A stretch of DNA of 44,799 nt from a virus (IMGVR_UViG_3300047495_000021:1-44799), one strand, 5' to 3'; shown: positions 1,326-44,590, numbered from the stretch's first letter. Notes: a model not told the origin generated them from the sequence alone. A program made the numbers and translations.

Positions 1326-1353
1326 AAATTGTGGGCATATAGGAGCAAAGCCG

Positions 1354-1686
1354 ATGCGTGAATTAGAAGCCGCGTTTGATGCCGCTTTAGCTAATTACAA
1401 GGCAACGCGCGCGGCGGCTGGCGGCTGTAGCGCCGCGTCGGGCAGCAAAAGCAGCGCAAGGCGTGCTGTTCTGATGCTCCGCAACATTCCGCCAGTGACC
1501 AAGCCATCACCCCCAGCCGATGCGCCCGTGCTTGTCTGTTTAGGCCAGCCAGAACGGCTGTATGCCATTCCAGCCCCGCCAGAACCGGCAGACGCGGCTA
1601 AGTGGCGGGCTGGCATCCAGCGCCGCTACGCGGCTGGCCTGGGCGTTGCTGTTGGGGATGACTATTTGCCGAAAAAAGATTTGTAA
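1354..1686 (+). CDS. Hypothetical Ala/Pro-rich early protein (110 aa)
   Basis: 110 residues from the ATG at 1354, which has an AGGAG site 8 bases upstream; the frame also runs back to 1288 but without a ribosome site. A helical N-terminus (MRELEAAFDAALANYKATRA) is followed by a low-complexity Ser/Ala stretch, a Pro-rich linker and a basic tail. Higher GC than its neighbours suggests a different history. I recognise no family. Confidence 0.55.
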   Translation: MRELEAAFDAALANYKATRAAAGGCSAASGSKSSARRAVLMLRNIPPVTKPSPPADAPVLVCLGQPERLYAIPAPPEPADAAKWRAGIQRRYAAGLGVAVGDDYLPKKDL

Positions 1687-1702
1687 CAGTTGAAATTAGC
1701 AG

Positions 1703-1778
1703 TTGACTTTGCCGGTTGAAGTTAGTAAGTTTCTGTTACCGGCGGCACTTTTGCTGCCGGTTTTGGGAGTTTTCTACT
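1703..1778 (+). promoter_or_regulatory. Promoter (module copy C) with leader hairpin
   Basis: TTGACT (1703-1708), 17-base spacer, TAAGTT (1726-1731). From -35 to -10 it is identical to the promoter at 32174 on the other strand except one base in the -10. The usual ACCGGAG leader is replaced by an 8-bp hairpin (1739-1746 with 1753-1760, one mismatch) followed by TTTT, which resembles an attenuator or terminator. The ribosome site GGGAG at 1765 follows. Confidence 0.65.
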
Positions 1779-1976
1779 ATGGCCGCAAAATTCGACTTTT
1801 CTGCCGCTACGGTTTTCAAGCTGGCGAACAAGGGCATTTCGATTTTGCGGCCCACCGTTATCTCAAAGCCGGCTTCTGATATGCCGTTTGCTACTGGTAA
1901 TCGTGGCTATAGCGTCAACGATAACGGTTGCGGGCGCATTTGGACGTTCGCACAAGTCATGGAGGCAATCCGCTAA
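1779..1976 (+). CDS. Hypothetical early protein (65 aa)
   Basis: 65 residues starting MAAKFDFSAATVFKLANKGI. The ATG at 1779 follows a GGGAG site. Not recognised. It looks soluble with mixed helix and strand and no cysteine cluster beyond one Cys near the end (DNGCGRIW). The stop overlaps the next start (TAATG), so the two are translationally coupled. Confidence 0.6.
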   Translation: MAAKFDFSAATVFKLANKGISILRPTVISKPASDMPFATGNRGYSVNDNGCGRIWTFAQVMEAIR

Positions 1977-12090: not shown

Positions 12091-13689
12091 ATGTGGCCGT
12101 TTGGAAAAGCTAAGCCGGTTGAAGTCACCCGTAAGAAAAGCGGTGGTATTTTTTCAACAGATGGTGAGGTAGAAATTGGCGAACGCAAGCTAGTTAAATT
12201 GCCCGATCCGCAAATACCATTGCCCACAATTCATATTGAAGGACTGGGCATGGATGATAACGGCGACGGATCATATTCATTAAAATTTAATCTATCACAA
12301 GCCTGCGGTGTGCCTGAAGCGCAAATAGAATGGTATGGCTTGCAGTCATTTATTGGTTATCAGCTTTGCGCGATTTTAGCGCAGCATTGGCTTGTAGCTA
12401 AGGCGTGCGCGATGCCGGGCCGTGATGCGGTGCGCAACGGCTATGAGTTGTCGGTTGATGATGGTAGCGACATTGATGTAAAAATAATAGCAGCGATTAA
12501 AAAAGCTGATAAGAAATTTAAGATCAAAAAACAGTTGCAAGATTTTGCTAATTTTGGGCGCGTTTTTGGTATACGGCATGCGTTGTTTAAAGTCGATAGC
12601 CCTGATCCAGAATACTATGCGAAGCCGTTTAACATTGACGGTGTTTTGCCCGGTTCATATCGCGGCATCAAACAAATTGATCCTTACTGGATTACGCCAG
12701 AATTGACTTCGCAAAATCTTGTCAATCCAGGTTCGGAGGGATTTTACGAACCGGAATACTGGCGTGTCAACGGTATGGGGCTTATTCATAAATCGCATTT
12801 GTGCATTTTTAGAACGGGCGAAGTTGCAGACATTTTGAAGCCGTCATATTTTTACGGCGGTGTAAGTATTCCACAACGTATTTATGAACGCATATACGCA
12901 GCCGAACGATCAGCTAATGAAGCGCCGATGCTTTTGCTTACAAAGCGCTTGACGATTATGTATGCGGATTTGAGTGCGGCAATTGCTGATCCGCAAAAGT
13001 TTGCCGAGCGTATGCAATGGTGGACGGAAAATCGCGACAATTGGGGCGTAAAAATTTGTGGCGAAGAGGAAAAAATAGACCAGAAAGATACGGCGCTAAC
13101 CGAAGTTGATAACGTCATTATGACGCAATACCAAATTGTTGCCGCTATTTCCGAAGTGCCGGGCACAAAAATGATGGGCACGCAACCAAAAGGATTTAAT
13201 TCGACTGGCGATTACGAAGAAAGTAGTTACCATGAAATGCTAGAAAGTATGGAGGAAAACGATTTAACCCCGTTGCTTGATAAACATTACGAATTAGTTG
13301 TGCAATCGGTTGTAAAACAGAAATTTCCTGATCAAGCCGCATTTGAAATTAGTGTAAATTGGAACGAATTGGATGCTATGACAGCCGCCGAACAAGCTGA
13401 AGTTAATGCGACTAAGGCGACAACTGGACTTGCGCTAATTCAGGGCGGCGTAATTGACAGTCAGATTGAACACACGCGAATTGTTAATGACAAGAATAGC
13501 GGTTACAGCGGTATGCCGGAAGAAGTGCCGCCGATGCCGGATGACCCTAACCCTGATGGTCCGGCTGATAACATGCCCCAGGCTGGCGGCGGGGCTGTGC
13601 TAGGGCAGACAACCGAAGAAGCAGCGGCGGCAGGTGCGGCCAAGGCGTTGCCCCATCCGCCGCGCCCTAAAGCCCCGGCTGGGCATTAA
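12091..13689 (+). CDS. Portal protein (DUF1073 type)
   Basis: 532 residues. Forms the dodecameric ring through which DNA passes. The region LAQHWLVAKACAMPGRDAVR followed by NGYEL is the DUF1073 portal signature; later segments YYAKPFNIDGVLPGSYRG and KMMGTQPKGFNSTGDYEESS fit the same family. The last 50 residues are a Pro/Gly/Ala-rich tail. The start follows AAAGGATATTTT. It sits between terminase and head morphogenesis protein, the standard order. Confidence 0.88.
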   Translation: MWPFGKAKPVEVTRKKSGGIFSTDGEVEIGERKLVKLPDPQIPLPTIHIEGLGMDDNGDGSYSLKFNLSQACGVPEAQIEWYGLQSFIGYQLCAILAQHWLVAKACAMPGRDAVRNGYELSVDDGSDIDVKIIAAIKKADKKFKIKKQLQDFANFGRVFGIRHALFKVDSPDPEYYAKPFNIDGVLPGSYRGIKQIDPYWITPELTSQNLVNPGSEGFYEPEYWRVNGMGLIHKSHLCIFRTGEVADILKPSYFYGGVSIPQRIYERIYAAERSANEAPMLLLTKRLTIMYADLSAAIADPQKFAERMQWWTENRDNWGVKICGEEEKIDQKDTALTEVDNVIMTQYQIVAAISEVPGTKMMGTQPKGFNSTGDYEESSYHEMLESMEENDLTPLLDKHYELVVQSVVKQKFPDQAAFEISVNWNELDAMTAAEQAEVNATKATTGLALIQGGVIDSQIEHTRIVNDKNSGYSGMPEEVPPMPDDPNPDGPADNMPQAGGGAVLGQTTEEAAAAGAAKALPHPPRPKAPAGH

Positions 13690-13692
13690 GCC

Positions 13693-14595
13693 GTGGCAAA
13701 GCGCAAGCTACCTAAGCAGCCCCGTGTAATCAAACGGGGGAAAGTTTTTCACATTAACGCAGTAATACAAAAAAGATATGTGCATTCAGTTATGACTTTA
13801 GTTACTGCAATGCAAGAGGAAACACGTAAAAAGTTTGTTAAATTGTTTGAAGAAGATTTTGCTCGCCAGCATTTTGAAGCCGTTGGCGATAGTGTGGGCA
13901 TGGATGCGGCAAGCGTTTCTAGTCAATCGCGCATTTTAACTAATGCGTTAAAAAGAAAATATGGGCAGTTATTCAATCAAATAGCTACGCCCGCAAGTGT
14001 GCGTGTAATGGACGCACTAAATCGGCAGTCACACATTGCGTCTAGCGAGGCTGTAAAAGATTTGTTTGAAGAAAGTAAGCATTACACGCTTGACACAAAG
14101 AAGTTAGATAAGCCAACGCTAGAAATTTTGAAAGCTTCAACCGAACGGTCGGCTAAATTCATCAAATCAATTCCAGAAAGTTATCTAGGCCACGTTGAAC
14201 GTGCTGTATTTAACAGCATTACTAACGGCAACGGTTTAAAAGATTTAATTCCGTTTCTAGAAAAACAGGGCGAAAAAACTAAGAATTGGGCCAATAATAC
14301 GGCAATGGATCAAACGCGAAAATCATATAACGGTTTGAATAAAGGGCGTATGCAGTCGATTGGAATTACGCAAGGCGAATGGATACATTCCGGCGGAAGT
14401 CAACATCCGCGGCCATTGCATGAAGCATTTGACGGCAAAATATACAATTTAGCAGAAGGTGCGCCGGTTAGCGATGATGACGGCAATAATGTTGACGCTG
14501 GCGAAGAGCCGAATTGCCGATGCACATTTGCGCCAGTGATAACTGATGACAAAATCGACACAGAAGAAGGTGGTGAAAACGCTGATGATGAATAG
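13693..14595 (+). CDS. Head morphogenesis protein (SPP1 gp7 / Mu gpF type)
   Basis: 300 residues from a GTG at 13693, very close to the portal stop. The C-terminal motif is diagnostic: WIHSGGSQHPRPLHEAFDGK, then EEPNCRCTFAPV near the end. The N-terminus is basic (AKRKLPKQPRVIKRGK). These minor head proteins sit inside the prohead near the portal and help assembly or DNA ejection. All key residues of the family motif (HSG, PRPLH, NCRC) are present. Confidence 0.88.
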   Translation: MAKRKLPKQPRVIKRGKVFHINAVIQKRYVHSVMTLVTAMQEETRKKFVKLFEEDFARQHFEAVGDSVGMDAASVSSQSRILTNALKRKYGQLFNQIATPASVRVMDALNRQSHIASSEAVKDLFEESKHYTLDTKKLDKPTLEILKASTERSAKFIKSIPESYLGHVERAVFNSITNGNGLKDLIPFLEKQGEKTKNWANNTAMDQTRKSYNGLNKGRMQSIGITQGEWIHSGGSQHPRPLHEAFDGKIYNLAEGAPVSDDDGNNVDAGEEPNCRCTFAPVITDDKIDTEEGGENADDE

Positions 14596-14650
14596 GCTAG
14601 CGCCACAACATACTGTGTGCTAGGGCAATGGGAACACATAGGCGGCGGCT

Positions 14651-30985: not shown

Positions 30986-30998
30986 TGGAGTAAATAAA

Positions 30999-31927: not shown

Positions 31928-31936
31928 GCTCAAAGA

Positions 31937-32119: not shown

Positions 32120-32174
32120 CTGACTTACTCCGGTTCGGTAAGAGTAATTTACTAACTTCAACCGGCAAAGTCAA
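32120..32174 (-). promoter_or_regulatory. Promoter and leader of the 31937 cassette (module copy E)
   Basis: On the minus strand: TTGACT (32174-32169), 17-base spacer, TAAATT (32151-32146), then ACTCTTACCGAACCGGAG and TAAGTCAG before the ATG at 32119. Spacer and -35 are identical to copy C at 1703; the leader end is identical to copy D at 2246. Confidence 0.8.
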
Positions 32175-32183
32175 CTGCTAAAA

Positions 32184-32209
32184 GCAACATTAACAAAAAT
32201 TAATGTTGC
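32184..32209. other. Perfect 10-bp hairpin upstream of the 31937 promoter
   Basis: GCAACATTAA (32184-32193) and TTAATGTTGC (32200-32209) with a 6-base loop CAAAAA. It lies about ten bases upstream of the -35 box, so it could be an operator-like inverted repeat or an end mark of the cassette. Confidence 0.45.
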
Positions 32210-32247
32210 CACGATTTGTTCTTTTTGGCCGTCGAACCCAAATAAAA

Positions 32248-32276
32248 CCCGCCCAGCTAGGGGTTAGCTGGGCGGG
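32248..32276 (-). terminator. Second terminator of the leftward replication operon
   Basis: CCCGCCCAGCTA pairs with TAGCTGGGCGGG (12 bp, loop GGGGT); read leftward it is followed by TTTTATTT. Strong rho-independent shape. Confidence 0.85.
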
Positions 32277-32303
32277 CAGGGCTGGCAACGCAGCGGCTAA
32301 AAT

Positions 32304-32333
32304 CGGCTAGGTTATTGGGGTATAACCTAGCCG
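32304..32333 (-). terminator. First hairpin after the 32338-33027 gene
   Basis: Perfect 12-bp stem CGGCTAGGTTAT / ATAACCTAGCCG with a 6-base loop, 5 bases below the stop codon. There is no T run, so it may protect the 3' end of the mRNA while 32248-32276 ends transcription. Confidence 0.6.
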
Positions 32334-32337
32334 AACG

Positions 32338-33027
32338 CTACTCTATACGCAGGACGCGCGCGCCTGCAACCCCAAACTGCGCATCAACTTCAACGGGCAC
32401 GATTTTAAACTTGCGTCCGGTTGCGCCGCCTTCCGGGGTTCCTTTAGCAAATTTTTTGTTGGCCTTGTTGACATTGCCCCCAAGCGACTTGGCCGGATTA
32501 GTCAGCTTGCTATTTGCTTCCACAAAAAAGCTGTCAAGCCCCTCCGGGGTCGGCGGCAGCAAATCGGCAAAGCCATACTTGTCACGCGGCCCGCGCCGAA
32601 CGGTCACAGCCGCCGCAACCGGCATCGGCATGCGAAAGCCTATCTCACGCTTGATTACCGTAGGCGGCGCGTTCGGATCGCGCTTGCCTTTGGGGCCACG
32701 CTTCTTCGGCGCGTTGGCATCGGCGCCAGCGGCAGGGGCCGAAGCCGGTTCCTGGGGCGTGGCTGGGGCTTCCTGGCCTTCCTGGGGCGCGGCAGGGGCG
32801 GCATCGCTAGCAACCGGCACTTCGGCCAAGCCTTTTGCCGTTGCCTTGTATGCGATTTGGTTAGCATCAGCGGGGTTTTTGTTGGCAGCGTCGCCTTCAA
32901 TATAACCTTCCTTTTCCAACGCCTTGATAAGCGGCCCCTTCGGATTGGCAAAAACGCCGCCATTCGGCCCCCTGGTATGCGACACAATCGGCACAAGCGC
33001 GGCCAACAAATTTGCATTGATTGTCAT
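32338..33027 (-). CDS. Ala/Pro-rich linker protein, possible DNA-binding (229 aa)
   Basis: 229 residues from the ATG at 33027; GGAG lies 11 bases upstream. N-terminal about 60 residues (LLAALVPIVSHTRGPNGGVF, GPLIKALEKEGYIEGD) read like a small winged-helix. Then an Ala/Pro/Gln-rich linker (about 72-105), a basic patch KKRGPKGKRDP, and a C-terminal domain ending FGVAGARVLRIE. It has its own TTGACA promoter at the end of the polymerase gene, and is the last gene of the replication operon. Possibly abundant DNA-binding or regulatory protein; not assigned. Confidence 0.6.
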   Translation of the reverse strand: MTINANLLAALVPIVSHTRGPNGGVFANPKGPLIKALEKEGYIEGDAANKNPADANQIAYKATAKGLAEVPVASDAAPAAPQEGQEAPATPQEPASAPAAGADANAPKKRGPKGKRDPNAPPTVIKREIGFRMPMPVAAAVTVRRGPRDKYGFADLLPPTPEGLDSFFVEANSKLTNPAKSLGGNVNKANKKFAKGTPEGGATGRKFKIVPVEVDAQFGVAGARVLRIE

Positions 33028-33063
33028 AAACTTTAACACTCCATAAAAACGGGTTCAACGCAG

Positions 33064-33094
33064 TTTATATGCACGACATTCAACCGACTGTCAA
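33064..33094 (-). promoter_or_regulatory. Promoter of the 32338-33027 gene
   Basis: TTGACA (33094-33089) on the minus strand, overlapping the polymerase stop codon, with CATATA at a 17-base spacing or TATAAA at 19 bases. The transcript would have a leader of roughly 40 bases. Confidence 0.55.
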
Positions 33095-35007
33095 CCCATC
33101 AATTTTAACTGATTGCCGCTTTTTTCTAAAAAACCTATATCTTCAAGTATTTCTATCGCAATTCGTTCATACCGAAAGTAATCAATGTCATCTGGAAAGT
33201 ATTTAGGCAACGTCATGCATGGTTTGCCGCCATCAGACATAGGCACTTTATTGCCGCTTTTACAGTATACAATGCTACCTAATACGTTTTCTGCATAATA
33301 ATAACGCACAGTTTTGCCTAAATAGTGGCTGTCTTTGGCCGCGCCGCCTGTTACCTTTTGCACGATTACAAATCGACGCAAATCTTTGCTTGCTGTTATA
33401 GTTTCCATTACTGGCGTGCCTTTAGTAATGGCCGCAATTGCCGCGTCAACGCAAATCAAATGTTGCGGATTTTTAGAAAGCGGGCTGTTCAAAGCCGAAC
33501 CGACTTCCGAATAAACGCCTTTTACTTTCGTCTTACCATCCGGCTTTACTACAATGTAATTATTTACGTCGCGGCTATAAATTGCGCTGTATTCAGTTTC
33601 TTCCGTTTGCAACCCGGTATGTGCTTCCCAAGCCGCCCAAAGATCAGTAAATTCACCATAGCGGTTGTGTGGGCATAACGTCACGATGCCATCTGTATTT
33701 GCAGAAATCACTTCAAAACCGCGATCAGTTAACGCTTCAATTGCCATAAGCAACGAAAATTGCCCGGTTAACGTGGTTTGCACCATATTTTTAGGGCTGT
33801 AAAGCGTCGAATAAGGATCAGATTTTTTGCCAAATGTTCCATTACTGGCGATTTTTAAGCCATCAGCTTCGGCTTTTGCGTAGGCGTCTTTCGTCTTTTC
33901 ATAAAGCCGCTTTGCTTTTGTTCGCTTGTCAACGATAGTCTGCAACGCTTCTAATTCGCCCGGTATATCCGAAAATTTATTTTTTAAAATTAAATTCGGA
34001 TAGTAGCCGGTTACGTCGCGATCAAGTATACGATACTTTCCGGCGCTATAAGCTTGCGTTTTTTCTTGACTGTGTAAACCGCCCATGCCGATAGCATAGC
34101 GTCGCCCAGCAATAACAAACGCGCGGCCTTCAATTGACTTAGGACAGATAACATGGCCTGAATGTCCTATTTCAATTTCGGCAGTTTGTATTTCACGCAA
34201 CACAGCATTGTTATTTTCATTGCGAAAGCCAACATAACTAGGCGCTGTGTAAGTAAAGCTACTGCCCACAAGTGCAGTAAAATCTTGCCGCTTTGGGAAT
34301 TTGCCAGTTATGCGATAGATTTCGCCATTTATGATTTCTTGCGCTAGTTGTGCATCTGATCGGCTGCGCAAGTCTTTCCCAAATTCAGCAGATAGCGCGG
34401 CGCGTAAATCTAGATGCGGTGACAATTCTTTTAAAACAAGTGCAGTGTTGTCAAGATCGTTAAAATTATAGGCGCGAACGAACGCCATTTCTTCGCGCGT
34501 CAATCGCTTGGCCGGTTCGTATGGCAAATCTTGTATGGTTTCACAGTGCAACCGTGCCGCGTATGTTTTCAAGCTGGCTGACAAGGGCGCTACGTCAAAA
34601 ATGTCTATATGATTAATGCCAGCTAGCGGCGGGCAACCGTAGGATTTTAGCACGTCGCCCGGCTTTTCATTGTCAACGATCATTGCCACGGTCGCGGCAT
34701 ATAGATCAGAAGCCGTTACGTTTCGATATTGAATTGCAATTGCCAATACAATTAGGTCATAAGAACCTGAATTGAAACCGACGATGCAAAAATTATCAAT
34801 CATCCAACGCAACCAATCGGATTGCACCGGGTCGTTTTCTGCGCTTTCAAAATAAGCTATTTTGCCGGTAGCTATATTTTTAAAGCCAACAAGCCAATAA
34901 TTATAGAAGCTTTCCGCGTCGAATACGAAAATGCCGCCTTTTTCGGCTAGTAATTCTTCGGTTATGTAAAACGAACGTTCTACCACGTTTTTATTGCAAT
35001 GTCGCAA
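33091..35007 (-). CDS. Family B DNA polymerase with 3'-5' exonuclease
   Basis: 638 residues if it starts at the TTG 35007; a GTG at 34986 is the alternative. Exonuclease motifs: FDAE (Asp30, Glu32), VGFNSGSYD (Asn79, Asp84), YNFND (Tyr180, Asp184). Polymerase motifs: A, DVTGYYPNLI (331-340); B, KIASNGTFG (385-393); C, SANTDGIV with NTD instead of the usual DTD (437-439). It replicates the phage genome. It is a compact phage-type PolB. The protein ends LKLMG. Overlaps the small gene 34980-35159. Confidence 0.85.
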   Translation of the reverse strand: MRHCNKNVVERSFYITEELLAEKGGIFVFDAESFYNYWLVGFKNIATGKIAYFESAENDPVQSDWLRWMIDNFCIVGFNSGSYDLIVLAIAIQYRNVTASDLYAATVAMIVDNEKPGDVLKSYGCPPLAGINHIDIFDVAPLSASLKTYAARLHCETIQDLPYEPAKRLTREEMAFVRAYNFNDLDNTALVLKELSPHLDLRAALSAEFGKDLRSRSDAQLAQEIINGEIYRITGKFPKRQDFTALVGSSFTYTAPSYVGFRNENNNAVLREIQTAEIEIGHSGHVICPKSIEGRAFVIAGRRYAIGMGGLHSQEKTQAYSAGKYRILDRDVTGYYPNLILKNKFSDIPGELEALQTIVDKRTKAKRLYEKTKDAYAKAEADGLKIASNGTFGKKSDPYSTLYSPKNMVQTTLTGQFSLLMAIEALTDRGFEVISANTDGIVTLCPHNRYGEFTDLWAAWEAHTGLQTEETEYSAIYSRDVNNYIVVKPDGKTKVKGVYSEVGSALNSPLSKNPQHLICVDAAIAAITKGTPVMETITASKDLRRFVIVQKVTGGAAKDSHYLGKTVRYYYAENVLGSIVYCKSGNKVPMSDGGKPCMTLPKYFPDDIDYFRYERIAIEILEDIGFLEKSGNQLKLMG

Positions 35008-35159
35008 GCATCTTTCAAATCTTGCGCTATGGTTTTAAGTTTTTCCATGTCTTCCGGTCGGCATATTTTGCTTTTACTCGCGTTTGTTAATTCTATATTT
35101 CCTGGATTTCTTGGGCAAAATGCTTGCACAGTAATAGTATAATATAAAGCTTTAGCCAT
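34980..35159 (-). CDS. Hypothetical protein between clamp and polymerase (59 aa)
   Basis: 59 residues from the ATG at 35159 (coupled TAATG) or 61 from 35165. MAKALYYTITVQAFCPRNPG, then PEDMEKLKTIAQDLKDACDI. Strand then helix, acidic. It lies between the clamp-like and polymerase genes, overlapping both, so a polymerase accessory role is plausible. Not recognised. Confidence 0.6.
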   Translation of the reverse strand: MAKALYYTITVQAFCPRNPGNIELTNASKSKICRPEDMEKLKTIAQDLKDACDIAIKTW

Positions 35160-36181
35160 TACCATGTTTTCCCCATAATTAAACCACGTATATTTGAACC
35201 AATAAACGCAGTCGGATTGGCAGCGGTCGCGCCTAGCTTAACCTGCTTGATATAGGGTAGCAATGCGCGCCAATAACTTTCTGCAAACGCCTGTTGCCCG
35301 CGAAGTGTGGGCACGTCATAGCTAGCGCAGTGTTCTAGGCTCTTGCCGGTAGCAAGCTTTCCGTCATGGAAAAATAGCCGGTCATCTTCTACAAATTTGT
35401 GCAGTGCTTTCATGGCTGGCGCAAAGCCATCCCATAGCGGCACAAATTCGCCTTGCATATTTTGATCAAACAACGTTCGCATGTTGCTAGGCCATTCCCC
35501 TGCGTAAAGCCGGGTGCGAATAAATGAATAATCATCGTAATAGAATGTGGCCGAAATATCAGGATTGTAACCAAATCCGCGCATTGATTTTTCTAGTTTG
35601 GTTATTGCGTCAACTGATTTTTTCGGAATAAGCAAGTTTTGCGGCAAATCTATGCCATGCCAAAATTCGATTGCGAAACCGCCATTGGTTGACGTGATCG
35701 AATTAGCTTGCAAATGCACACATTGATGGATTGTGCGGTCGCCTTTGCCAGTGCAGCCTTTGCTAACGGCTTTAAAACCATTAGCTAAGTCATTGTGAAT
35801 TATTCCAATCCATTCGTCGGGCGTTGACTGGCGCACCATTTCGGTTTCTAGAATTGGAATTACAGCCCGGAATTTGCCAGACGTTATCGACAATTCTTGT
35901 TTACCTACTTGCACCATTTGAAAATTATCGCCGCATTGTTCTAGCGCAGCCTGCAATTTTTCGCCATGCAGCGCCATATCTAGCGGCGTATCAACTGGCA
36001 TGCCTACAGCAAAGGTTTCGTTTTCGCTCATAAGCAAGCCGTCTTTGACTGTCACGTAAGCAGCAAGTCCGCTGTTGTCATCTTTGCTAATTGCAACAGC
36101 GGCAAAATCAAGCGCGGCTAGTAACGCCTTACGAACGTTGCCGGTTGATGCCGCTTTTAGTTTTGCCGCTGTTGTTACCAT
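35159..36181 (-). CDS. Putative sliding clamp (beta-clamp-like)
   Basis: 340 residues from the ATG at 36181; the frame runs on to 36259 but that stretch overlaps the small gene before it. Features: LLMSENETFAVGMPVD, LSITSGKFRAVIPILETE, FAIEFWHGIDLPQNLLIPKK, LYAGEWPSNMRTLF. The repeated strand-helix units and the SGKFR...P segment are like phage beta clamps. Located just before the DNA polymerase in the same operon, which supports a processivity factor. Family call needs a profile or structure check. Confidence 0.58.
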   Translation of the reverse strand: MVTTAAKLKAASTGNVRKALLAALDFAAVAISKDDNSGLAAYVTVKDGLLMSENETFAVGMPVDTPLDMALHGEKLQAALEQCGDNFQMVQVGKQELSITSGKFRAVIPILETEMVRQSTPDEWIGIIHNDLANGFKAVSKGCTGKGDRTIHQCVHLQANSITSTNGGFAIEFWHGIDLPQNLLIPKKSVDAITKLEKSMRGFGYNPDISATFYYDDYSFIRTRLYAGEWPSNMRTLFDQNMQGEFVPLWDGFAPAMKALHKFVEDDRLFFHDGKLATGKSLEHCASYDVPTLRGQQAFAESYWRALLPYIKQVKLGATAANPTAFIGSNIRGLIMGKTW

Positions 36182-36182
36182 T

Positions 36183-36353
36183 TTACAGTTTTTCCGGCAA
36201 AATACCGCGACTTGCCAATTCAGCAATGAATTTTGCAGCTTCCGCACAAGCGGTTGCATCCGGGTCCATTACGCCGGGTTTGCTTATCGCGTAAGCAATT
36301 CGCAAAGCAATCGCCATTAATCCAATTGCTTCTTTCTTTTCCGAAGGTGTCAT
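36183..36353 (-). CDS. Small helical protein (56 aa)
   Basis: 56 residues: MTPSEKKEAIGLMAIALRIA, YAISKPGVMDPDATACAEAA, KFIAELASRGILPEKL. Strong GGAAGGAAAAATC ribosome site; the stop is one base from the clamp-like start. All-helical, Ala-rich. No family recognised. This gene is too short for a simple ORF filter but coding signs are good (start, ribosome site, spacing). Confidence 0.65.
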   Translation of the reverse strand: MTPSEKKEAIGLMAIALRIAYAISKPGVMDPDATACAEAAKFIAELASRGILPEKL

Positions 36354-36411
36354 TTATGATTTTTCCTTCCCATATAACCTACATCGTTACGCCACATAAT
36401 AGCATGCAGCA

Positions 36412-37113
36412 TCAGAAAGGAACATCATCAAACGTAAACGCAGGGCAATTAACCTTAGCATTTACGATGATTTTTATGGGCGGCGTTTGCTTGTAAAAGT
36501 CGCACAGATTAGCCGCAAAATTTACATGCTCGCAATTGCCGCAAGTCATTATTCTTTCTATTTGTAGCGTTTCCGGTTCGGGCTGATCTTCAATGATCGT
36601 TTGCGCCATTGTTAAAAGATCAGCGCGCAATTGCTGCAAAGCGTCATCAATCGTTTTAACAATCCACGCGTCATCTTCCCCAGCCTGTTCCACGGTAGCA
36701 GTGTGGGCAGGCTGTGCGGCTTGTGCGATCAATTCGGCAGGCGATTTGCCGGGTGGCAACCATCCCCCAGGCGGTGCGCCAGTTTGGGCGGCTGGGGGCG
36801 GTGTTGGCTGGCTTACAGGGGCTTGGGGACCAGTTGCCGCTTCCCCTTTGCGCGGCCTTCCACGGGGGCGAGTGGGGCCGGTGGTGACGGTTTCGGCTGG
36901 CATACGCATTGCTTCTATTTCCTTATAGATAGTAGTCCAGTTGATCGGGCAAAGTATGTGGTTTGTTCGGCCTTCCAAAGTCAACGCGTAAGTATTTTTT
37001 TTAAGCACTTTATAAGCGACTAAATTATTTTCAATTTCGGCTTCTATTACGTCACCCAAATTGATTTTATTCATTGCCTCTTGCGCGATGCCGATATAAA
37101 GATCACTTACCAT
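36412..37113 (-). CDS. Zinc-finger/AT-hook-like protein (233 aa)
   Basis: 233 residues; start overlaps the helicase stop. N-terminal about 70 residues are a compact domain (LGDVIEAEIENNLVAYKVLK). Then RPRGRPRKGE, an AT-hook-type GRP core, and a Pro/Ala/Gln-rich linker. A helix (DDALQQLRADLLTMAQTI) is followed by a four-Cys site: CGNC, then C about 10 residues on and NCPAF. Tripartite build suggests a DNA-binding factor working with the helicase. No named family. Confidence 0.62.
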   Translation of the reverse strand: MVSDLYIGIAQEAMNKINLGDVIEAEIENNLVAYKVLKKNTYALTLEGRTNHILCPINWTTIYKEIEAMRMPAETVTTGPTRPRGRPRKGEAATGPQAPVSQPTPPPAAQTGAPPGGWLPPGKSPAELIAQAAQPAHTATVEQAGEDDAWIVKTIDDALQQLRADLLTMAQTIIEDQPEPETLQIERIMTCGNCEHVNFAANLCDFYKQTPPIKIIVNAKVNCPAFTFDDVPF

Positions 37114-38720
37114 TGTGCCTCTACAATTTCAGGCCATTTTCTATTAACCCATACTTTGATAGTTTTAGGCGGTAGTAATTTGTCAACATATCTCATAGCA
37201 TCGTTGACAGTTGACGGCAAAAAGCCTTCGGCTGGAAATCTTTGACGCCACCATTCACGTGCCCGCTTGCCTCCAAATCCAGCCGCTTCTAACGCAACAA
37301 ATTCTGTAAACGATTGCATGCCGCAACGATAAACCGCCTTCAAAACCGGCTTATCTTCGCTAGTAGCCGCTTTTTTCAGATATTGCGTGTAAAAAACGTG
37401 ATCAACTTTATATGTTTCATATACCGGAAGATCACTGCGCACAAGCGCGTCATCGAAAGAAGTTTTCTTAAATCCAACTTTTGTTTCAAACGGTTCGCCG
37501 CAGCAATCGCACACAGCCGCCCGCGCATGATTATAGGTGCCACAAGCTGGACACAGCTTTACAGGCGCATCGCCAGTGCCTTTGCCTTTCAGCTTGGGTA
37601 TATAAGGATCGTCTATCGTGCCCAGGCGGCGCGCATTGCCTCCGTGATCAGTCACAAGGCAATCTTGCTTGTGCCAGCCGTTCAAATCGTAAGGGCGCGT
37701 GCCACGCCCTAGCATCTGCACCCATAACCCCGCGCTCATGGTTGGGCGAAGCATTATTATGTGATCAATCGGCGGGTGATCAATGCCAGTAGTGGCAATA
37801 CCATTGTTAACAAGAGTGTCAAATTCGTTAGCAAAATAAGCTTTAAATATAGCATCTCTTTCTGTGTCCGGCATACGTGAATGCACACAACGCGCGTTAA
37901 CGCCCAAATGACGCATCATATCAGTAGCTAAGATAGCATGATCAACGCCGCTGCAAAAAACAAGTCTACAATTTCTGTCATGGCCTTTGTTCAAACTTTC
38001 TTGCAAAGCCGCCCAGGTTATTTTTTCATTTTTCGTGACTTGCTGCAAGCCCGCCTGACTAAATTCGCCTGCGGTTATTTTAATTTCACTTACGTCTATT
38101 TCAGTTGTAGTTTTTTTTGCACGCGGCGGCACCAAATAATTTTCATCGAATAGCCGCCGAAAACCCGGAATGTCGCAAATATCATAAGCAACATCTGTAA
38201 AAATGCTGCCATTGGTTAGGCAACCCATGCCAGTGCGCCAGCGCGTTGCCGTCAATCCAATAACTTTTAGATAAGGATTGCGTTCACGCAATGCTCTGAT
38301 AACGTATTGATATTTGCTATCTGCCGCATCACCAAGCAAATGTGCTTCGTCAATTAAAAGCAAATCAATATGACCGAAGGCAAAAATTACATTGGCAACA
38401 GATTTAACCGAACCAAACGTGATCGGATAATGCAAATCGCGCTGATGCAGCCCCGCTGAATAAATACCGGCTGGCGCATTTGCCCATACATTATGCATGG
38501 TTTTATGATTATTTTTTACCAATTCCTTCACGTGCGTTAAGCACAAAACCCGCTGATTAGGATACATTTGCAAAACGATTTCAAGAAACCGCGCTTGCAC
38601 TCGGCTTTTGCCTGCGCCAGTTGGCAAGCAAATCAACGGATTGCCAGAATTATTCTGGAAATAATTAAACAGCGCATCAATTGCGCCTGTCTGATACCAG
38701 CGATCAGCATGCACAGTCAT
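37107..38720 (-). CDS. SF2 helicase (DEAH type) with zinc motif
   Basis: 537 residues from the ATG at 38720, coupled to the nuclease stop (ATGA). Motifs in order: Walker A PTGAGKS at 33-39, DEAH at 124-127, TAT at 157-159, FCSG at about 255, NGIATTGIDHPPIDH around 306-320, motif VI QMLGRGTRP at 335-343. After the helicase core two CxxC pairs (PACG at 391-394 and CDCC at 404-407) form a zinc knuckle, then a helical C-terminal domain. Likely unwinds DNA at origins or forks or for recombination. Confidence 0.9.
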   Translation of the reverse strand: MTVHADRWYQTGAIDALFNYFQNNSGNPLICLPTGAGKSRVQARFLEIVLQMYPNQRVLCLTHVKELVKNNHKTMHNVWANAPAGIYSAGLHQRDLHYPITFGSVKSVANVIFAFGHIDLLLIDEAHLLGDAADSKYQYVIRALRERNPYLKVIGLTATRWRTGMGCLTNGSIFTDVAYDICDIPGFRRLFDENYLVPPRAKKTTTEIDVSEIKITAGEFSQAGLQQVTKNEKITWAALQESLNKGHDRNCRLVFCSGVDHAILATDMMRHLGVNARCVHSRMPDTERDAIFKAYFANEFDTLVNNGIATTGIDHPPIDHIIMLRPTMSAGLWVQMLGRGTRPYDLNGWHKQDCLVTDHGGNARRLGTIDDPYIPKLKGKGTGDAPVKLCPACGTYNHARAAVCDCCGEPFETKVGFKKTSFDDALVRSDLPVYETYKVDHVFYTQYLKKAATSEDKPVLKAVYRCGMQSFTEFVALEAAGFGGKRAREWWRQRFPAEGFLPSTVNDAMRYVDKLLPPKTIKVWVNRKWPEIVEAQW

Positions 38721-39574
38721 GAAAAAGCTTCCCAACGCTCGCATGCTTTTGGAATAGCGTCATGCGGAATGGTCGCGTTCCATTGGCGGCAGTGCCAATC
38801 TTTTGTTGACTGTCGCGGTATACTGTAGCGGCAAGATCGGCAATTAACGTCAATAGGTTCGCCCCGGTGGCAGACGCCAGCCATGGGACAGAATTTGCAA
38901 TCCATATAGGCTTCACTTGCGGCAATTTTGTTCGGCAAGTGCGGCGCGCTTATAACGGCTTCGGCCTTAGCTAATAGTTTTTTAGCGTGCGCGTGATCTA
39001 ATTCGACAATTTCAATCCACAATTCATCTGTGTTTTTGTTTACAGCGAAATATATTGCGTAATCGAATTTGTATGCTTCCCCATATACGCACATTTGATC
39101 AAAGTGCTTAGGCTTTGACAGCTTTACACCATCAGCTTTAAGCATCTTGAAAGACTTTTCCCCATGCGTTTTAAATTCAGTCAGAAACGCAGGCAAGTTG
39201 CCAAATAGTGTGGGCAACAGTGCAACGCCATCCAACGAACCGCCGAAAAAACCATGCCCTTCAACGCGGAATTGTTTGCCAGTATTAGGATCATTTTCAA
39301 AGGCTTGCGCGCCAATAAGCCGAAGCCATTGAACAAAGCGTGCTTCTTCGCTGTGGCCGCGATTAAACAAGCGAAGCATACACCCATTGAATTGTTCGCG
39401 ATGCATCCATCGAAAACTATAAACAAGTCTTCGCATGCATTTTTCGCCAATTTCAGACGCGCCTAAATGATCGCGCGGCAATTCGGCAAAATGTGTAACG
39501 CAAGCATCGTCAATATCAGCCAGCATTTTTGCTGCTAGCTTTTTACGTTCCGCGCCGCTTAGACGGATATTCAT
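38717..39574 (-). CDS. Cas4/RecB-like PD-(D/E)xK nuclease with Fe-S cysteines
   Basis: 285 residues. Core motifs: GGSLDG with Asp115, EFK at 133-135, and QMCVY (QxxxY, 160-164). Cys46 and Cys227/Cys230/Cys236 match the four-cysteine Fe-S arrangement of Cas4/AddB-type nucleases (one Cys before and three after the core). Extra Cys/His follow in the C-terminal tail. An exonuclease for end processing or single-strand annealing recombination. Paired by overlap with helicase, like RecBCD- or Dna2-type teams. Confidence 0.83.
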   Translation of the reverse strand: MNIRLSGAERKKLAAKMLADIDDACVTHFAELPRDHLGASEIGEKCMRRLVYSFRWMHREQFNGCMLRLFNRGHSEEARFVQWLRLIGAQAFENDPNTGKQFRVEGHGFFGGSLDGVALLPTLFGNLPAFLTEFKTHGEKSFKMLKADGVKLSKPKHFDQMCVYGEAYKFDYAIYFAVNKNTDELWIEIVELDHAHAKKLLAKAEAVISAPHLPNKIAASEAYMDCKFCPMAGVCHRGEPIDVNCRSCRYSIPRQSTKDWHCRQWNATIPHDAIPKACERWEAFS

Positions 39575-40002
39575 TAAGGTTGCCGCGTCGCTTCTTCGGT
39601 TTCAGGAAACAGCGGCGTTTGCTTCCATCTGCCATAATTTTCATACCGCCAACGCGACATTTCTTTAGCAAGCTGGCGCATTTCTGCAATTTTCTCGCGG
39701 TCGCTTTCGGGCTTAATGCCCAATTCGATCATTTTTTCGCAAGTATCTGCCCATACTAAAATTGCACGTGGGCCAGCTTGGTCACGCCCTGCAATCACCG
39801 CGTATGGTTCATCCGGCAAAAGACTTTCGTAAACGTCGAATTTGCCTGGATTTAGTTTAGTTGCCATTCGCGTTGCCTTAAAATTCTGTTTACGCCAAAG
39901 AAGAGCGCAGTCATAGCAACTTTCCCAATCTCTCAACTGATTATGATTAGTGTTGCATTGCGGATGTTTTTGATAGTGCAATATTGTGCTGGGGTTCGTC
40001 AT
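39574..40002 (-). CDS. Conserved phage hypothetical (142 aa)
   Basis: 142 residues from the ATG at 40002 with AGGAAATC; an internal ATG at 39867 (MATKLNPGKF) with AAGGC is an alternative giving 97 residues. A Cys/His-containing N-terminus (HPQCNTNH, ESCYDC) could bind zinc. The C-terminal part is helical (EKIAEMRQLAKEMSRWRYEN). Stop overlaps the nuclease start. Function unknown. Confidence 0.6.
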   Translation of the reverse strand: MTNPSTILHYQKHPQCNTNHNQLRDWESCYDCALLWRKQNFKATRMATKLNPGKFDVYESLLPDEPYAVIAGRDQAGPRAILVWADTCEKMIELGIKPESDREKIAEMRQLAKEMSRWRYENYGRWKQTPLFPETEEATRQP

Positions 40003-40011
40003 CTAGATTTC

Positions 40012-40097
40012 CTGCAAAAGAAAAGCGGGGCGAGCAACCGCGCCAAACGCTTGATCACCCGCCCCTAGCGCCGCACACCTTGCATGGGTGCGCGGCG
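40012..40097 (-). terminator. Tandem hairpins below the ssDNA-binding gene
   Basis: First hairpin 40069-40079 with 40087-40097 (11 bp, one wobble). Second, GGGGCG / CGCCCC (40027-40032 with 40060-40065), followed leftward by GCTTTTCTTTT. They divide the leftward operon after its first three genes. Confidence 0.65.
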
Positions 40098-40103
40098 ATC
40101 CGT

Positions 40104-40751
40104 TTACCGCCCCCAGGGCGGTGCAGCGTTGCCGCTAGGCTGTTGGCCCCAGGCTGGTGTAGGAGCGGCTTGCGCTGGCGCGGGCGGCTGTGTAGCCGTG
40201 CCACCCCATGATGCCGGGGTAACGGTAGCTTGCGGCGCTGGCTGGGCGGCAGGCGCACCCCAAGCAGGCGTTGGCGCAGGCGTTGGCGCAGGCGTTGCTT
40301 GCGGTGGCGGGGCAGCAGGTTGTGCGGGGCCGGTCGGCGCGGCTTGCCGCACGGGCGGTTGCCCGTGCATGTCGAATACAGCCGAAATTTCGGTGTATTT
40401 TTCATCGTTCTTTTGCGACGTAACAAGCACCACAAAAGGCTTGTTGAACAATTCCGCTGCGTTTTCACTTTCCAGAACATATTGCCCGGTTACATGGCAA
40501 AGCGATGAAAGTTGTTTGCTCGCAATTTCCGCTGCTTGCGGGTTTTCGTTCCACAAATTCAGTCTGTAGCCGCCTTCAAAATTCTTTGAAGGACCATCAA
40601 TCACGCGCAAAGTAAATTCCAGCATACCGCTTTGCGGCTTGTCTTTCACCGATTTACGGTGGCCCGCAATAATCACAACCGGATGTTTGCCGAGCGGCCA
40701 TGTAGCCGATCCGGTTGCAGGTTCAACTTGCCTTGCATCAAACCACGCCAT
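40104..40751 (-). CDS. DUF669-like single-stranded DNA-binding protein
   Basis: 215 residues: ATWPLGKHPVVIIAGHRKSV, GMLEFTLRVIDGPSKNFEGG, YRLNLWNENPQAAEIASKQL, the OB-fold-like core of DUF669 proteins, which act as phage SSB. From about 130 a long Pro/Ala/Gln/Thr-rich tail ends NAAPPWGR, in place of the acidic tip seen in bacterial SSB. Directly below the Sak4-like ATPase, a standard annealing-recombination pair. Confidence 0.75.
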   Translation of the reverse strand: MAWFDARQVEPATGSATWPLGKHPVVIIAGHRKSVKDKPQSGMLEFTLRVIDGPSKNFEGGYRLNLWNENPQAAEIASKQLSSLCHVTGQYVLESENAAELFNKPFVVLVTSQKNDEKYTEISAVFDMHGQPPVRQAAPTGPAQPAAPPPQATPAPTPAPTPAWGAPAAQPAPQATVTPASWGGTATQPPAPAQAAPTPAWGQQPSGNAAPPWGR

Positions 40752-40753
40752 TT

Positions 40754-41431
40754 TTAACTTCCTTGTATTTTAGCAATGATATGGGAAAGGTTTGCCGGTT
40801 CCCATAAATCCAGCCTGCCAAGCCGATTGCGTGCGTTGCATTGCACATTCTCACGGCAACACAAAGCAACTTGTTCAATCCCGCTTGCGTCGCGACTACG
40901 CTGCATAAACAGAACGTTGTCGAAATAGTATGGCAAATTAGGTGCCAGCTTCGGCATGGCGGCGTAGGGTTCAAACCACACGCTGCCATTTTCCAAAACT
41001 GATTTGGTTGCCTTGCACGTCATCCATACATTTTTATTAGGTATGTTGCAATAATCCAGCACAAGCGCGCAGATTTCGCTGACTGTTTCTGGCGAGTATT
41101 TTCGCGCATCATTCTTATATTTGCGGCGGTTCTCGCCTAGCGCCTGATCGGCTATTGCGGAAATACTGTCAAAATAAATGTTAACTAAATTTTTTTGCTG
41201 CTTAATCCACGGTATAAGGTTGCGAGCTTCCGTTGCAGTTTCACAAGGCACATAAGATAAGCCCGCGCCTTTCAACGATAGGGTGCCGGGTTCGGTCGCG
41301 ATCAATAGCGTGGAACGGCGCGCGTCCGGTAAGCTGGCGGCAATTGGTGTTTTCCCAGCGCCAGCCATACCGTAAATCATTGTATTGATTTTATCGGATG
41401 GTATGGTGTCTGTGTTATAGATTGTGGGCAT
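40754..41431 (-). CDS. Sak4-like RecA-fold ATPase (recombination)
   Basis: 225 residues. Walker A GMAGAGKT at 21-28, Walker B IYFDS at 85-89, then a conserved VWMTCKATK-type strand. These short RecA-like proteins act in phage homologous recombination together with an SSB, which here is the next gene. Start adjoins the previous stop. One TGTGGGCA (41423-41430) lies at its start codon. Confidence 0.83.
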   Translation of the reverse strand: MPTIYNTDTIPSDKINTMIYGMAGAGKTPIAASLPDARRSTLLIATEPGTLSLKGAGLSYVPCETATEARNLIPWIKQQKNLVNIYFDSISAIADQALGENRRKYKNDARKYSPETVSEICALVLDYCNIPNKNVWMTCKATKSVLENGSVWFEPYAAMPKLAPNLPYYFDNVLFMQRSRDASGIEQVALCCRENVQCNARNRLGRLDLWEPANLSHIIAKIQGS

Positions 41432-41848
41432 TTAGTCGCTATCTCTTTCAATGAGCGTAATTTCGACAAGCGCTGGTTTGATTGTAAGCACGTCATTCAA
41501 AATTTGTTGCTGTTCAACTGGCATTGCTTCATAGATTTTAACGTCTAGCGAAGCTTTCCAGGCAATGACTTCGGTTACGTCAACTTCAGGAAATTCTTTC
41601 GTTAAACGATCCAATGCGGCTGTGATTTTATCGTTGTCTCTATCTAACGTGTAAGTCAATTTACGCACGCATTTTAATTCTTTGTCAGCGCTGTAAAACG
41701 TGCCTTTATCGGGCACGCCTTCAAATTCAGCAAAAAATAATTCAATGCGTGCGTAACCTTCATCTTTTTTTGCGGCAGTCAAGCGTGATTTGGCGATCAA
41801 CCAATTGCAGCGTAATTTCAACCTGCTAAGCATTGTTATTCGCCGCAT
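41432..41848 (-). CDS. Hypothetical first gene of the leftward replication operon (138 aa)
   Basis: 138 residues from the ATG at 41848, or 133 from 41833 (MLSRLKLRCNWLIAKSRLTA). A basic N-terminus, strand-rich middle (RIELFFAEFEGVPDKGTFYS) and acidic helices later. It directly precedes Sak4 and DUF669, so a recombination or annealing partner is possible. Not recognised. Confidence 0.6.
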   Translation of the reverse strand: MRRITMLSRLKLRCNWLIAKSRLTAAKKDEGYARIELFFAEFEGVPDKGTFYSADKELKCVRKLTYTLDRDNDKITAALDRLTKEFPEVDVTEVIAWKASLDVKIYEAMPVEQQQILNDVLTIKPALVEITLIERDSD

Positions 41849-41973
41849 CCCGCATTCACGTTTATGTCACTTATAGCCTGCCGCTTAGCGTGTCAACTGC
41901 TTTTCTTAGTCAATGATGGCTTGCACTTTAGTTGACTAAGATGTATGCCGATCACAGAAAAATGAGGTGCATG
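41849..41973. promoter_or_regulatory. Divergent promoter region of the replication block
   Basis: Leftward: TTGACA (41896-41891) with TAAGTG at 17-base or TATAAG at 15-base spacing. Rightward candidates are TTGCAC (41921) with TATGCC at 17 bases, or TTGACT (41932), weaker. A perfect 9-bp inverted repeat, CTTAGTCAA (41905-41913) and TTGACTAAG (41932-41940), with an 18-base spacer lies in between, placed like an operator over both. Confidence 0.55.
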
Positions 41974-42204
41974 ATGCTTTGGCAGTCTTTGAAAGTAGTC
42001 ACGCAAGCGATGCTACAAAATCGCACGCGTAATTTAACATACGCCAAGATCGCGGAAGAAGTCATGCAGTATTGCCCACAAGATCAGCAAATAACAGCGG
42101 CTTGGCTTGAACAGTTTGCAACAGACCGTATTAAAGCCCCGTCGGTTGATAAGGTGCAGGTTCTTTACGAATACTTGTCAAAGCAGCCGCTTATTTCTGC
42201 ATAA
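41974..42204 (+). CDS. Small helical protein, possible regulator (76 aa)
   Basis: 76 residues from the ATG at 41974 with GAGG six bases upstream; 41971 and 41962 are alternatives. LWQSLKVVTQAMLQNRTRNL, then TYAKIAEEVMQYC, ITAAWLEQFATDRIKAPSVD. Two or three helices with a TYAKIAEEV...ITAAWLEQF arrangement like a helix-turn-helix. It sits directly at the divergent promoter, so it may regulate replication genes. HTH call is by eye. Confidence 0.5.
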   Translation: MLWQSLKVVTQAMLQNRTRNLTYAKIAEEVMQYCPQDQQITAAWLEQFATDRIKAPSVDKVQVLYEYLSKQPLISA

Positions 42205-42235
42205 CTTGCACGCTGTAATAACTAAGGCGGCGTTT

Positions 42236-44590
42236 ATGGCCTTGTCAGATATTCCGCAAGAATTGCGGCAGTTAAATCAATGGATAAATTGGAAATACGA
42301 GGAAATTGATGGTAAACAGACTAAAATTCCCCTACGTTCTATTGATGGAAAAAAGGCCAGCGTCACCGATCCTAGGGATTGGACGGATTTCTTTTCAGCA
42401 AATGCTGCTATCCAATACTGCGCTGGCATCGGGTTCGTCTTTACCGCCGACGATCCCTATTGCGGTTTGGATTTCGACAACAAATCTAATGATGCGGCGG
42501 TTAATATCTATATACGCGAAACTGTGCAAAAAATCGCCAGTTACGCGGAAATCACGCCTAGCGGATTTGGCCTGCATTCTATTGTCAAAGCAAAATTACC
42601 TGGCAACGGTCGCAGGCGCGGCGCTTTGGAAATCTATGACACAAAACGTTTCTTCACCTTTACAGGAAACGTATATTTAAATGCGCCAATTGCCGAACGT
42701 CAATCCGAAGTTGTCGAATTGTGGCAATCAATCGGACCAGCCCAAACCGTTGAAACAATTGCTACGGGCAACGATGCGGAAATCTATACCGATGACGAAA
42801 TACTCGCCAAGGCCAAAGAGGCTGTTAATGGCGAGAAATTCGCAAGGCTATTTTCTGGCGATTGGGAAAGCGATTACGGCGACAAATCCCAATCGGAAGC
42901 GGATTTTGCGCTTATCAACATTCTGGCGTTTTATTCGCGGAATTTAACGCAAACAATTCGGATTTTTCGTGCAAGCGGTTTAGGCCAGCGCCAAAAGGCG
43001 CAACGCGGTAGCTATGTGAGTTTGATGGCGCGGCGCGCGTTTGATCGCATGCCCGCGACCGTTTCAACCGTGACCGGCAGTGGCCCGTGGTTTGATGCGC
43101 GAGTGATAGCCCCCTGGGCGCCATCACTCGCCCAGGGGGCCGCGCTAGGGGCAGCAATCGGCATTGCGCACACGCCAGCGCCCAAGGAAGCTAGCCTAAG
43201 CCTTCCCCCCGTGGCAAGCCTGCCGCCCATTCCTGGCCTTGTGGGCAAGCTTATGGCCCATTGCTGGCACAGAAGCACCTATCCCGTGGCGGAAGTCGCT
43301 ATTGCGTCCGCATTGGCTTCCATGGCGCTCCTAGCCGGGCGAACGTATCGGATCGGCAGCAATGGCCTAAGCCTGTATATTTTGGTTATGGCAAAAACTT
43401 CTATTGGTAAATCTTTTGCGTATCAAGCGCAACACGCATGGCAAAACGCGTTAATTCGGCGCTATCAAAATCCAACAGGCGGCGGTCAATATAAACAGCG
43501 TTGCGAATATCTTGAAGGAATGATTACTGGTAAAATTGGAAGTGCATCAGGCGTTGCGCAGCATGTTGTGCGGCATCCTAATTCGCTTTGTCAATATGAT
43601 GAATTTGTTAACAAAATGAAGGAAATTGCGCATCCTCGTGCAAATCCTAATGACTTAGCAATTCAAGGCGAATTATTATCGCTAACTGATAATTCGCAAC
43701 CCGGCGCGATCTATCGCGAAAAATCATATTCGCAACGCGGCGGTAAAGAGAAGTTGCCGCCGGTCATTTCGCCAGCCTTCACCCTACTTGGAACCGGCAC
43801 GCCAGAAGGTTTCTATAATGATCTTGGTAACGGCATGCTTGAAGGCGGGTTTTTGCCGCGTTTCATCATTATGGAATACGAAGGCACGCTGCCGGAAGAG
43901 AACGAAAATGTTGTGACTGAAATTGACAGCGGTATGCTTGACGAAATTGCGTTGCATTTTAATAGAGCGTTTGATCTTAACGCAGTAATTACTGGCGACA
44001 TTAATCAGATTATTAATGTTGAAGCTGATAAATTTGCATCCGTTAAATTAACAGAATGGAAACGTTTGTGTGAAACCGCAGTGCGGCACGCGCACGGTGA
44101 AGGGCAACCGACCGCCGGTTTATGGTCGCGCGCTATTCAACACGTCTATAAGATTGCCGCGCTAATTGCTATTGGGGTAAATCCCCACAAACCAGTAATT
44201 TTAAGTGAATACGTTTATTATGCTAGATTGATAGTTGAGCCGGGCATTCATCGCATTGTGGGGAAGCTACAAACTGGCGAAGTAGGGCAAGGCGATAGCC
44301 GGTGCGAAGCGGAAGTGCGCAATTATGTGCGGCGAGTTAGGTCACAAGGTCTAGGTTTTGTGGAAGCTTACCCTGGCTTTAGTCGCGAAATTGCGCAAAC
44401 GGCTTATTTACAGATTGGACCTATGAAATGGTTTGTCACTAAACGCGGTGCGTTTAAGTCGCATAAACTTGGCGAAAGCCGTGGCTTTGATGAAACTATT
44501 AACGCTATGATAACTGGTGGTGAATTTGAACGTAAAGATTTTGCCATAATTAACGGCAGAAAGGTTAAAGCCCTTCTGCCGTTATTTTAA
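42236..44590 (+). CDS. PrimPol-DUF3987 fusion (primase-helicase)
   Basis: 784 residues from the ATG at 42236 with AAGG. N-terminal AEP-type primase-polymerase like NrS-1: GLDFDN at 77-82 (Asp79, Asp81), SGFGLH at 109-114, EIYDTKRFFTFTGN at 132-145. Then the helical segment SEADFALINILAFYSRNL and FRASGLGQRQK, typical of the PrimPol C-terminal region. A Pro/Ala linker (about 285-335) leads to DUF3987 with Walker A AKTSIGKS at 386-393. Both parts are complete. It can make primers and probably unwind DNA at the origin, replacing separate primase and DnaB-type helicase. Confidence 0.85.
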   Translation: MALSDIPQELRQLNQWINWKYEEIDGKQTKIPLRSIDGKKASVTDPRDWTDFFSANAAIQYCAGIGFVFTADDPYCGLDFDNKSNDAAVNIYIRETVQKIASYAEITPSGFGLHSIVKAKLPGNGRRRGALEIYDTKRFFTFTGNVYLNAPIAERQSEVVELWQSIGPAQTVETIATGNDAEIYTDDEILAKAKEAVNGEKFARLFSGDWESDYGDKSQSEADFALINILAFYSRNLTQTIRIFRASGLGQRQKAQRGSYVSLMARRAFDRMPATVSTVTGSGPWFDARVIAPWAPSLAQGAALGAAIGIAHTPAPKEASLSLPPVASLPPIPGLVGKLMAHCWHRSTYPVAEVAIASALASMALLAGRTYRIGSNGLSLYILVMAKTSIGKSFAYQAQHAWQNALIRRYQNPTGGGQYKQRCEYLEGMITGKIGSASGVAQHVVRHPNSLCQYDEFVNKMKEIAHPRANPNDLAIQGELLSLTDNSQPGAIYREKSYSQRGGKEKLPPVISPAFTLLGTGTPEGFYNDLGNGMLEGGFLPRFIIMEYEGTLPEENENVVTEIDSGMLDEIALHFNRAFDLNAVITGDINQIINVEADKFASVKLTEWKRLCETAVRHAHGEGQPTAGLWSRAIQHVYKIAALIAIGVNPHKPVILSEYVYYARLIVEPGIHRIVGKLQTGEVGQGDSRCEAEVRNYVRRVRSQGLGFVEAYPGFSREIAQTAYLQIGPMKWFVTKRGAFKSHKLGESRGFDETINAMITGGEFERKDFAIINGRKVKALLPLF

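Follow-up and report, generated by a model that had tools for sequence, protein, structure and literature searches.

Strand-specific words dispersed along DNA are known from other systems. The Chi sites of RecBCD and AddAB are strand-oriented octamers over-represented genome-wide, while primases such as T7 gp4 and DnaG, which are TOPRIM-type enzymes with a trinucleotide core, use very frequent, sequence-specific lagging-strand priming sites that are scattered over the phage genome and need no even 2–4 kb layout. A further kind of primase, the primase-polymerase (PrimPol), is also sequence-specific: that of NrS-1 recognises 5'-TTTGGTTA-3' and, more efficiently, 5'-GTGG/GTGA-3', and its synthesis begins with the base adjoining the site on the 5' side (PMC8718748). 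Similarly, the helix bundle of pRN1 ORF904 reads GTG in the template, and the enzyme makes primers of ~8 nt (PMC8718748). Here we analyse a virus record of 44,799 b (IMGVR_UViG_3300047495_000021:1-44799, hereafter the window), in which the octamer TGTGGGCA recurs across the whole genome. From sequence comparisons we propose, with high confidence, that this word is the site at which the NrS-1-type primase-polymerase encoded by the phage itself recognises the template and starts primers.

Enrichment and per-strand spacing of the octamer

An exact search of both strands of the window finds TGTGGGCA 17 times on the + strand and six times on the − strand, against Markov expectations (order-0 to order-3) of 0.7–1.0 and 0.4–0.7 copies respectively. 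In dinucleotide shuffles the total for both strands averages 1.65, with a maximum of 7. The exact counts and shuffles agree with a preliminary description of this DNA, made from the sequence alone, which had reported the word as over-represented at 17 and six copies; its coordinates were right except for one copy given as 5509, whose true position is 5499. The excess also holds in a full 8-mer count against a Markov model, the check which that description had suggested, and no other dispersed octamer is comparable. After thinning copies less than 300 b apart, TGTGGGCA ranks first by far among window octamers (log10P 15.5, against 5.8 for the next unrelated one), and it is the sole dispersed window octamer at such enrichment. 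The GCCGTAGC and GCCGCTGC family was rejected as a rival, since it derives largely from low-complexity tandem repeats at both contig ends, and the remaining frequent octamers disappear after thinning of close copies. Of the 24 single-base variants of TGTGGGCA, none is clearly enriched in the window.

The 17:6 strand excess is by itself modest (binomial P=0.035); it is common to the relatives, where it reaches 201:128 toward the late-gene strand (P=7e-5). Coding bias was rejected as its source because genes of the two orientations show the same excess (114/72 and 59/41, Fisher P=0.71), and the sites occupy all three codon positions in genes of both strands, as the preliminary description had argued in setting codon use aside. 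The sites at 21665 and 42073 are intergenic. The former had been listed as such together with 1330 and 30380, which instead lie inside an open reading frame (ORF) at 1288–1686 and at the extreme start of a doubtful TTG ORF, respectively. Between relatives, 47 of 99 word sites are fully kept, compared with 15.4% for same-composition octamers (P=1e-13). This conservation, the other test that had been suggested, and the strand excess in relatives uphold the view of TGTGGGCA as a functional, strand-oriented word.

The strongest feature of the + sites, which had gone unmentioned, is their evenness. Their spacing averages 2635 b, with a minimum of 1360 and a maximum of 4819, and has a coefficient of variation (CV) of 0.36 compared with 0.92 for random placement (P<5e-5). 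Per-strand CVs in relatives are 0.27 in Kharn, 0.28 and 0.29 in R3 and 0.17 in Shy. Across 15 genomes, only 2 same-strand word pairs lie less than 800 b apart where 83.9 are expected, whereas opposite-strand pairs at that distance number 78 against 79.8 expected. The pattern recurs in 73 further contigs, with 21 same-strand close pairs against 119.6 expected and 115 opposite-strand pairs against 117.9, and 2045 control octamers show no same-strand exclusion. In a blind scan of all 6–8-mers for per-strand regularity, the word containing GTGG came first in nine of ten phages that carry the replication module described below and second in the window, while the same scan of seven control phages gave nothing comparable. 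AAGCTT, which stood ahead of TGTGGGCA in the window, was discarded as a palindrome counted twice, and a pairing of + with − sites, hinted at by G001, is unsupported (pooled P=0.99, the opposite way). The word thus acts per strand, as expected of a PrimPol site, and since same-strand exclusion is present without a cross-strand effect, the spacing pattern requires a process working on one strand at a time.

Association of the word with a replication module

The window carries a replication module whose genes for a polymerase, clamp, helicase, Cas4-domain exonuclease, single-strand DNA binding protein (SSB) and Sak4 run leftward at 33–42 kb, with the primase rightward at 42.2–44.6 kb. Across phages, the word is linked to this module and not to the terminase or portal. 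It is the top octamer, or a top octamer, in module-bearing phages of Pseudomonas, Variovorax, Sphingomonas, Paracoccus, Rhodobacter, Acinetobacter and E. coli. The two strands hold 9/6 copies in PaMx42, 10/6 in VCLv11, 13/5 in Kharn, 16/10 in R3, 12/8 in Shy, 7/6 in Loki, 9/7 in RcHartney and 7/3 in Axy20, as well as 8/15 in Ab_SZ3 and 8/11 in LPPA15, whose records are both reversed. Counted across entire records, the nearest uncultured relatives of the window have 16/12, 8/11 and 14/4 copies, and a reversed-word control gives 0.

These distributions bear on two proposals of the preliminary description. A packaging, terminase or virion-assembly signal would agree with the spread of the sites over the whole genome, but the word does not follow the terminase. 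Burkholderia phage Magia and Bordetella phage IFTN9, whose TerL proteins are closest to that of the window (57–59% identity), carry other replication modules and have 0 and 1 copies of TGTGGGCA; partial contigs fetched by TerL or portal (L009–L012) have 0–1, and phages with unrelated terminases hold the full set. A packaging role therefore has next to no chance of being correct.

A Chi, uptake or segregation word derived from the host and taken up by the phage would also be over-represented and strand-biased, as such words are in bacteria. However, the module phages come from alpha-, beta- and gammaproteobacterial hosts, a range that removes the host Chi and uptake explanations, and the word is not carried by Magia or IFTN9 with their other modules. 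Judged from phages of these three proteobacterial classes rather than from counts in host chromosomes, the word shows no tie to a host species and its RecBCD/AddAB. While it resembles Chi in being a strand-oriented octamer over-represented genome-wide, the reader of Chi is host-encoded, and here the word follows a phage module across hosts. We consider a host origin extremely improbable.

Other enriched octamers were also observed in some genomes and contigs. In Variovorax phage VCLv21 (L013), CTCCGGCG, CGATTTCG, CGTATTCG and AACTCGCC are strongly enriched too, and in L033, L042, L206 and L207 the dispersed, enriched octamers TACTCGAC, CTGCGGCT, TGCGGAGC and AACCGGGC outrank TGTGGGCA.

The primase as candidate reader of the word

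The primase of the window is an NrS-1-like PrimPol. A profile of its N-terminal 345 residues, built with 34 homologues, matches the NrS-1 PrimPol structure 6k9a over residues 7–254 (E=5e-46, hmmsearch against PDB). The Pfam family of the NrS-1 helix-bundle domain (HBD), PF22763, matches the window primase with E=1.7e-7 and is present in all 34 homologues, and the catalytic residues of archaeo-eukaryotic primases (AEPs), D79 and D81 of the DxD motif and H114 of the SxH motif, are invariant in the 34 sequences. In addition, its AlphaFold model (pLDDT 87) is matched by Foldseek to NrS-1 N300 (E=2.6e-18) and to the pRN1 PrimPol (2e-6).

The proposed site resembles that of the NrS-1 PrimPol (NrSPol), an enzyme of the same family by profile, fold and HBD, in being 8 nt long with a GTGG core, and the Seuratvirus form of the word, TGTGGTTA, is one base off TTTGGTTA. 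Unlike NrS-1, whose two TTTGGTTA copies were proposed as origins (PMC7102993), the window has 23 evenly spread copies, the word is enriched across many phage genera, and the phages have a replicative polymerase and a clamp in addition to the PrimPol. ORF904 of the archaeal plasmid pRN1 has matching Prim/Pol and HBD folds and likewise starts outside 5'-GTG-3' with ~8-nt primers, but it needs only 3 nt, and dispersed plasmid sites are not described. As with T7 gp4 and DnaG, the sites proposed here would be sequence-specific lagging-strand priming sites dispersed over a phage genome; the differences are a PrimPol in place of a TOPRIM-type enzyme and an even octamer layout in place of a trinucleotide core. 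Outside the word, base preference is confined to 8 bases on the 5' side and is near zero on the 3' side (720 sites), with A as the second base in 59% and depletion of A 5–8 bases out. This 5'-limited preference would fit a short primer made there.

The word also varies between phages in dialects. We surveyed 134 non-redundant contigs of at least 11 kb, almost all fetched by primase homology, and the top octamer holds GTGG in 93 of them, compared with 3.9% of all octamers. TGTGGGCA is the commonest dialect, the variants TGTGGTCA, TGTGGTTA and CTGTGG keep GTGG, and all reliable dialects contain it, as the core of a PrimPol site should. A separate primase clade uses TGTGGTCA (Nipunavirus NP1 and Vibrio BA3) or TGTGGTTA (Seuratvirus SLUR76). 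On the primase tree (102 rows) the state of the 6th base changes twice, the minimum for three states, and it changes 2 times on the SSB tree, 3 on that of Cas4, 4 on that of the helicase and 5 on that of Sak4. One phage lineage (L067–L069) has TTGTGGGG in place of TGTGGGCA, with 11/9 copies and zero TGTGGGCA in L069.

In a part-by-part comparison of the module, the word persists in R3, which lacks this polymerase family, and in Axy20, which has no Cas4 nuclease. The word is absent from Vibrio 1.017.O, which has only the polymerase of the module, and from PEi21 and KpV79, which have distant homologues of some parts only. In Rhizobium phage RHEph06 (L241), homologues of the polymerase, clamp, helicase, Cas4, SSB and Sak4 are kept, the primase aligns over residues 1–234 only, and the evenly spaced word is CTGTGG, at 19 copies per strand; ACCTGGG, although very enriched there (28/11), was rejected as the functional word for its irregular spacing. 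Together these comparisons point to the primase as the reader, though on the tree alone the SSB would fit as well.

A directional reader of another kind could likewise yield same-strand spacing. A phage-encoded Chi-like site would make the helicase and Cas4-exonuclease pair stop degrading DNA and begin recombination together with the Sak4 annealing protein, and it is in favour of such a site that Chi-like words are strand-oriented octamers and that the module supplies an annealing ATPase next to a helicase and a nuclease of the Cas4 type. However, the word does not co-vary with these proteins: Axy20 has it without the nuclease, RHEph06 retains all three with a different word, and their trees need more dialect changes than the two of the primase tree. 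The GTGG core and the 5' context, moreover, agree with published PrimPol behaviour, and a Chi-like site is thus unlikely. Still less likely is a binding site for another strand-specific part of the replisome, SSB or clamp, used in loading or priming. In its favour, the dialects fit the SSB tree just as well as the primase tree, but RHEph06 combines an SSB homologue with a different word, the published specificity sits in the PrimPol helix bundle, and SSBs are not usually sequence-specific.

Several observations weigh against reading by the primase. Since the contigs were mostly gathered by primase homology, the survey alone is no test of the primase against its module partners; the SSB tree fits equally well, and the clamp and polymerase trees hold too few T-dialect members for the comparison. 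The spacing test does not bear out TTGTGGGG as the dialect of L069, same-strand exclusion being absent, and Loki, RcHartney, Axy20 and VCLv21 show clear regularity only with a degenerate or shifted word picked after inspection. Furthermore, the Listeria LP-030-2 and Lactobacillus CL2 phages have a related Prim/Pol N-terminus but no dispersed word, and TTTGGTTA occurs just twice in the genome of NrS-1 itself (PMC7102993), so the presence of a PrimPol alone does not predict the word.

Proposed priming mechanism and genomic setting

If the word is a PrimPol priming site, the strand carrying 5'-TGTGGGCA-3' would become single-stranded at the fork, where the primase would bind the GTGG core through its HBD. 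Its Prim/Pol domain would then start a primer of ~8 nt, with the bases immediately 5' of this core as template, for the phage polymerase to extend. Because each strand would need a site every few kilobases, selection would retain sites where the same-strand gap is large, and near-duplicate same-strand sites would decay. The excess on the + strand, which is the late-gene strand, suggests that this strand serves as lagging-strand template more often than the other, with forks moving mainly rightward or the + strand being displaced.

It is likely, more broadly, that phages of a widespread group have programmed ladders of long primase sites, each strand being supplied independently with one PrimPol octamer every 2–5 kb, with clade dialects that coevolve with the primase and initiation points that can be read from the sequence. 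Our search, confined to the open-access literature with subscription papers outside its scope, found nothing relevant on these words or on evenly spaced primase sites. If correct, this proposal would allow lagging-strand starts to be predicted at base resolution in hundreds of phages, and the strand excess would predict the main direction of replication. The natural dialects would tie primase specificity to genome sequence, and selection would be seen to hold an 8-base word at even per-strand intervals through coding sequence. Primase site choice in vivo, a hard question, would become open to direct tests in phages whose hosts are commonplace, such as E. coli K-12, and the per-strand spacing test would offer a general means of finding directional DNA signals.

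Table 1. Word sites and replication genes of the window
Feature	Position	Strand	Basis or remark
TGTGGGCA, 17 copies (8 b each)	1330, 5499, 9074, 13893, 16733, 19626, 21665, 24700, 26060, 28877, 30380, 33668, 35306, 36702, 39209, 41423, 43240	+	span 1330..43247; exact search, even spacing
TGTGGGCA, 6 copies (8 b each)	12221, 19761, 22058, 31222, 34263, 42073	-	span 12221..42080; exact search
DNA polymerase (phrog_1252)	33091..35007	-	
Sliding clamp / processivity factor homologue	35159..36259	-	tblastn to annotated clamps
SF2 DNA helicase (phrog_16)	37107..38744	-	
Cas4-domain exonuclease (phrog_1990)	38717..39574	-	
Single-strand DNA binding protein (phrog_6015, DUF669)	40104..40751	-	
Sak4-like annealing ATPase (phrog_124)	40754..41431	-	
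NrS-1-type primase-polymerase with C-terminal ATPase/helicase-like part; proposed word reader	42236..44590	+	mechanical ORF from 42107; start assigned to the ATG at 42236
Archaeo-eukaryotic Prim/Pol domain, approx. residues 1-180	42236..42780	+	D79xD81 and SGxGLH (H114) motifs, invariant in 34 homologues
HBD, approx. residues 186-270	42790..43050	+	counterpart of template-motif reader in pRN1 ORF904

The window phage is contractile-tailed, with portal, capsid and DUF3383 sheath identified, and its genome is mosaic (Table 1 lists the replication genes). The TerL-centred morphogenesis module at 9.9–30 kb is akin to that of the temperate Bordetella and Burkholderia myophages IFTN9 and Magia, while the replication module at 33–44.6 kb resembles that of Septimatrevirus-type siphophages; the polymerase is closest to that of Variovorax VCLv21 (49%), then to that of Septimatrevirus PaMx42 (44%). 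No host prophage came up when genome contigs were scanned with TerL only. Low-complexity GCCGTAGCC/GCTGCTGCC repeats of one and the same kind occupy both contig ends (1–110 and 44600–44799) and are rich in Gly and Tyr on the minus strand; for that reason the genome probably maps circularly, with the break of the record inside a single repetitive gene.

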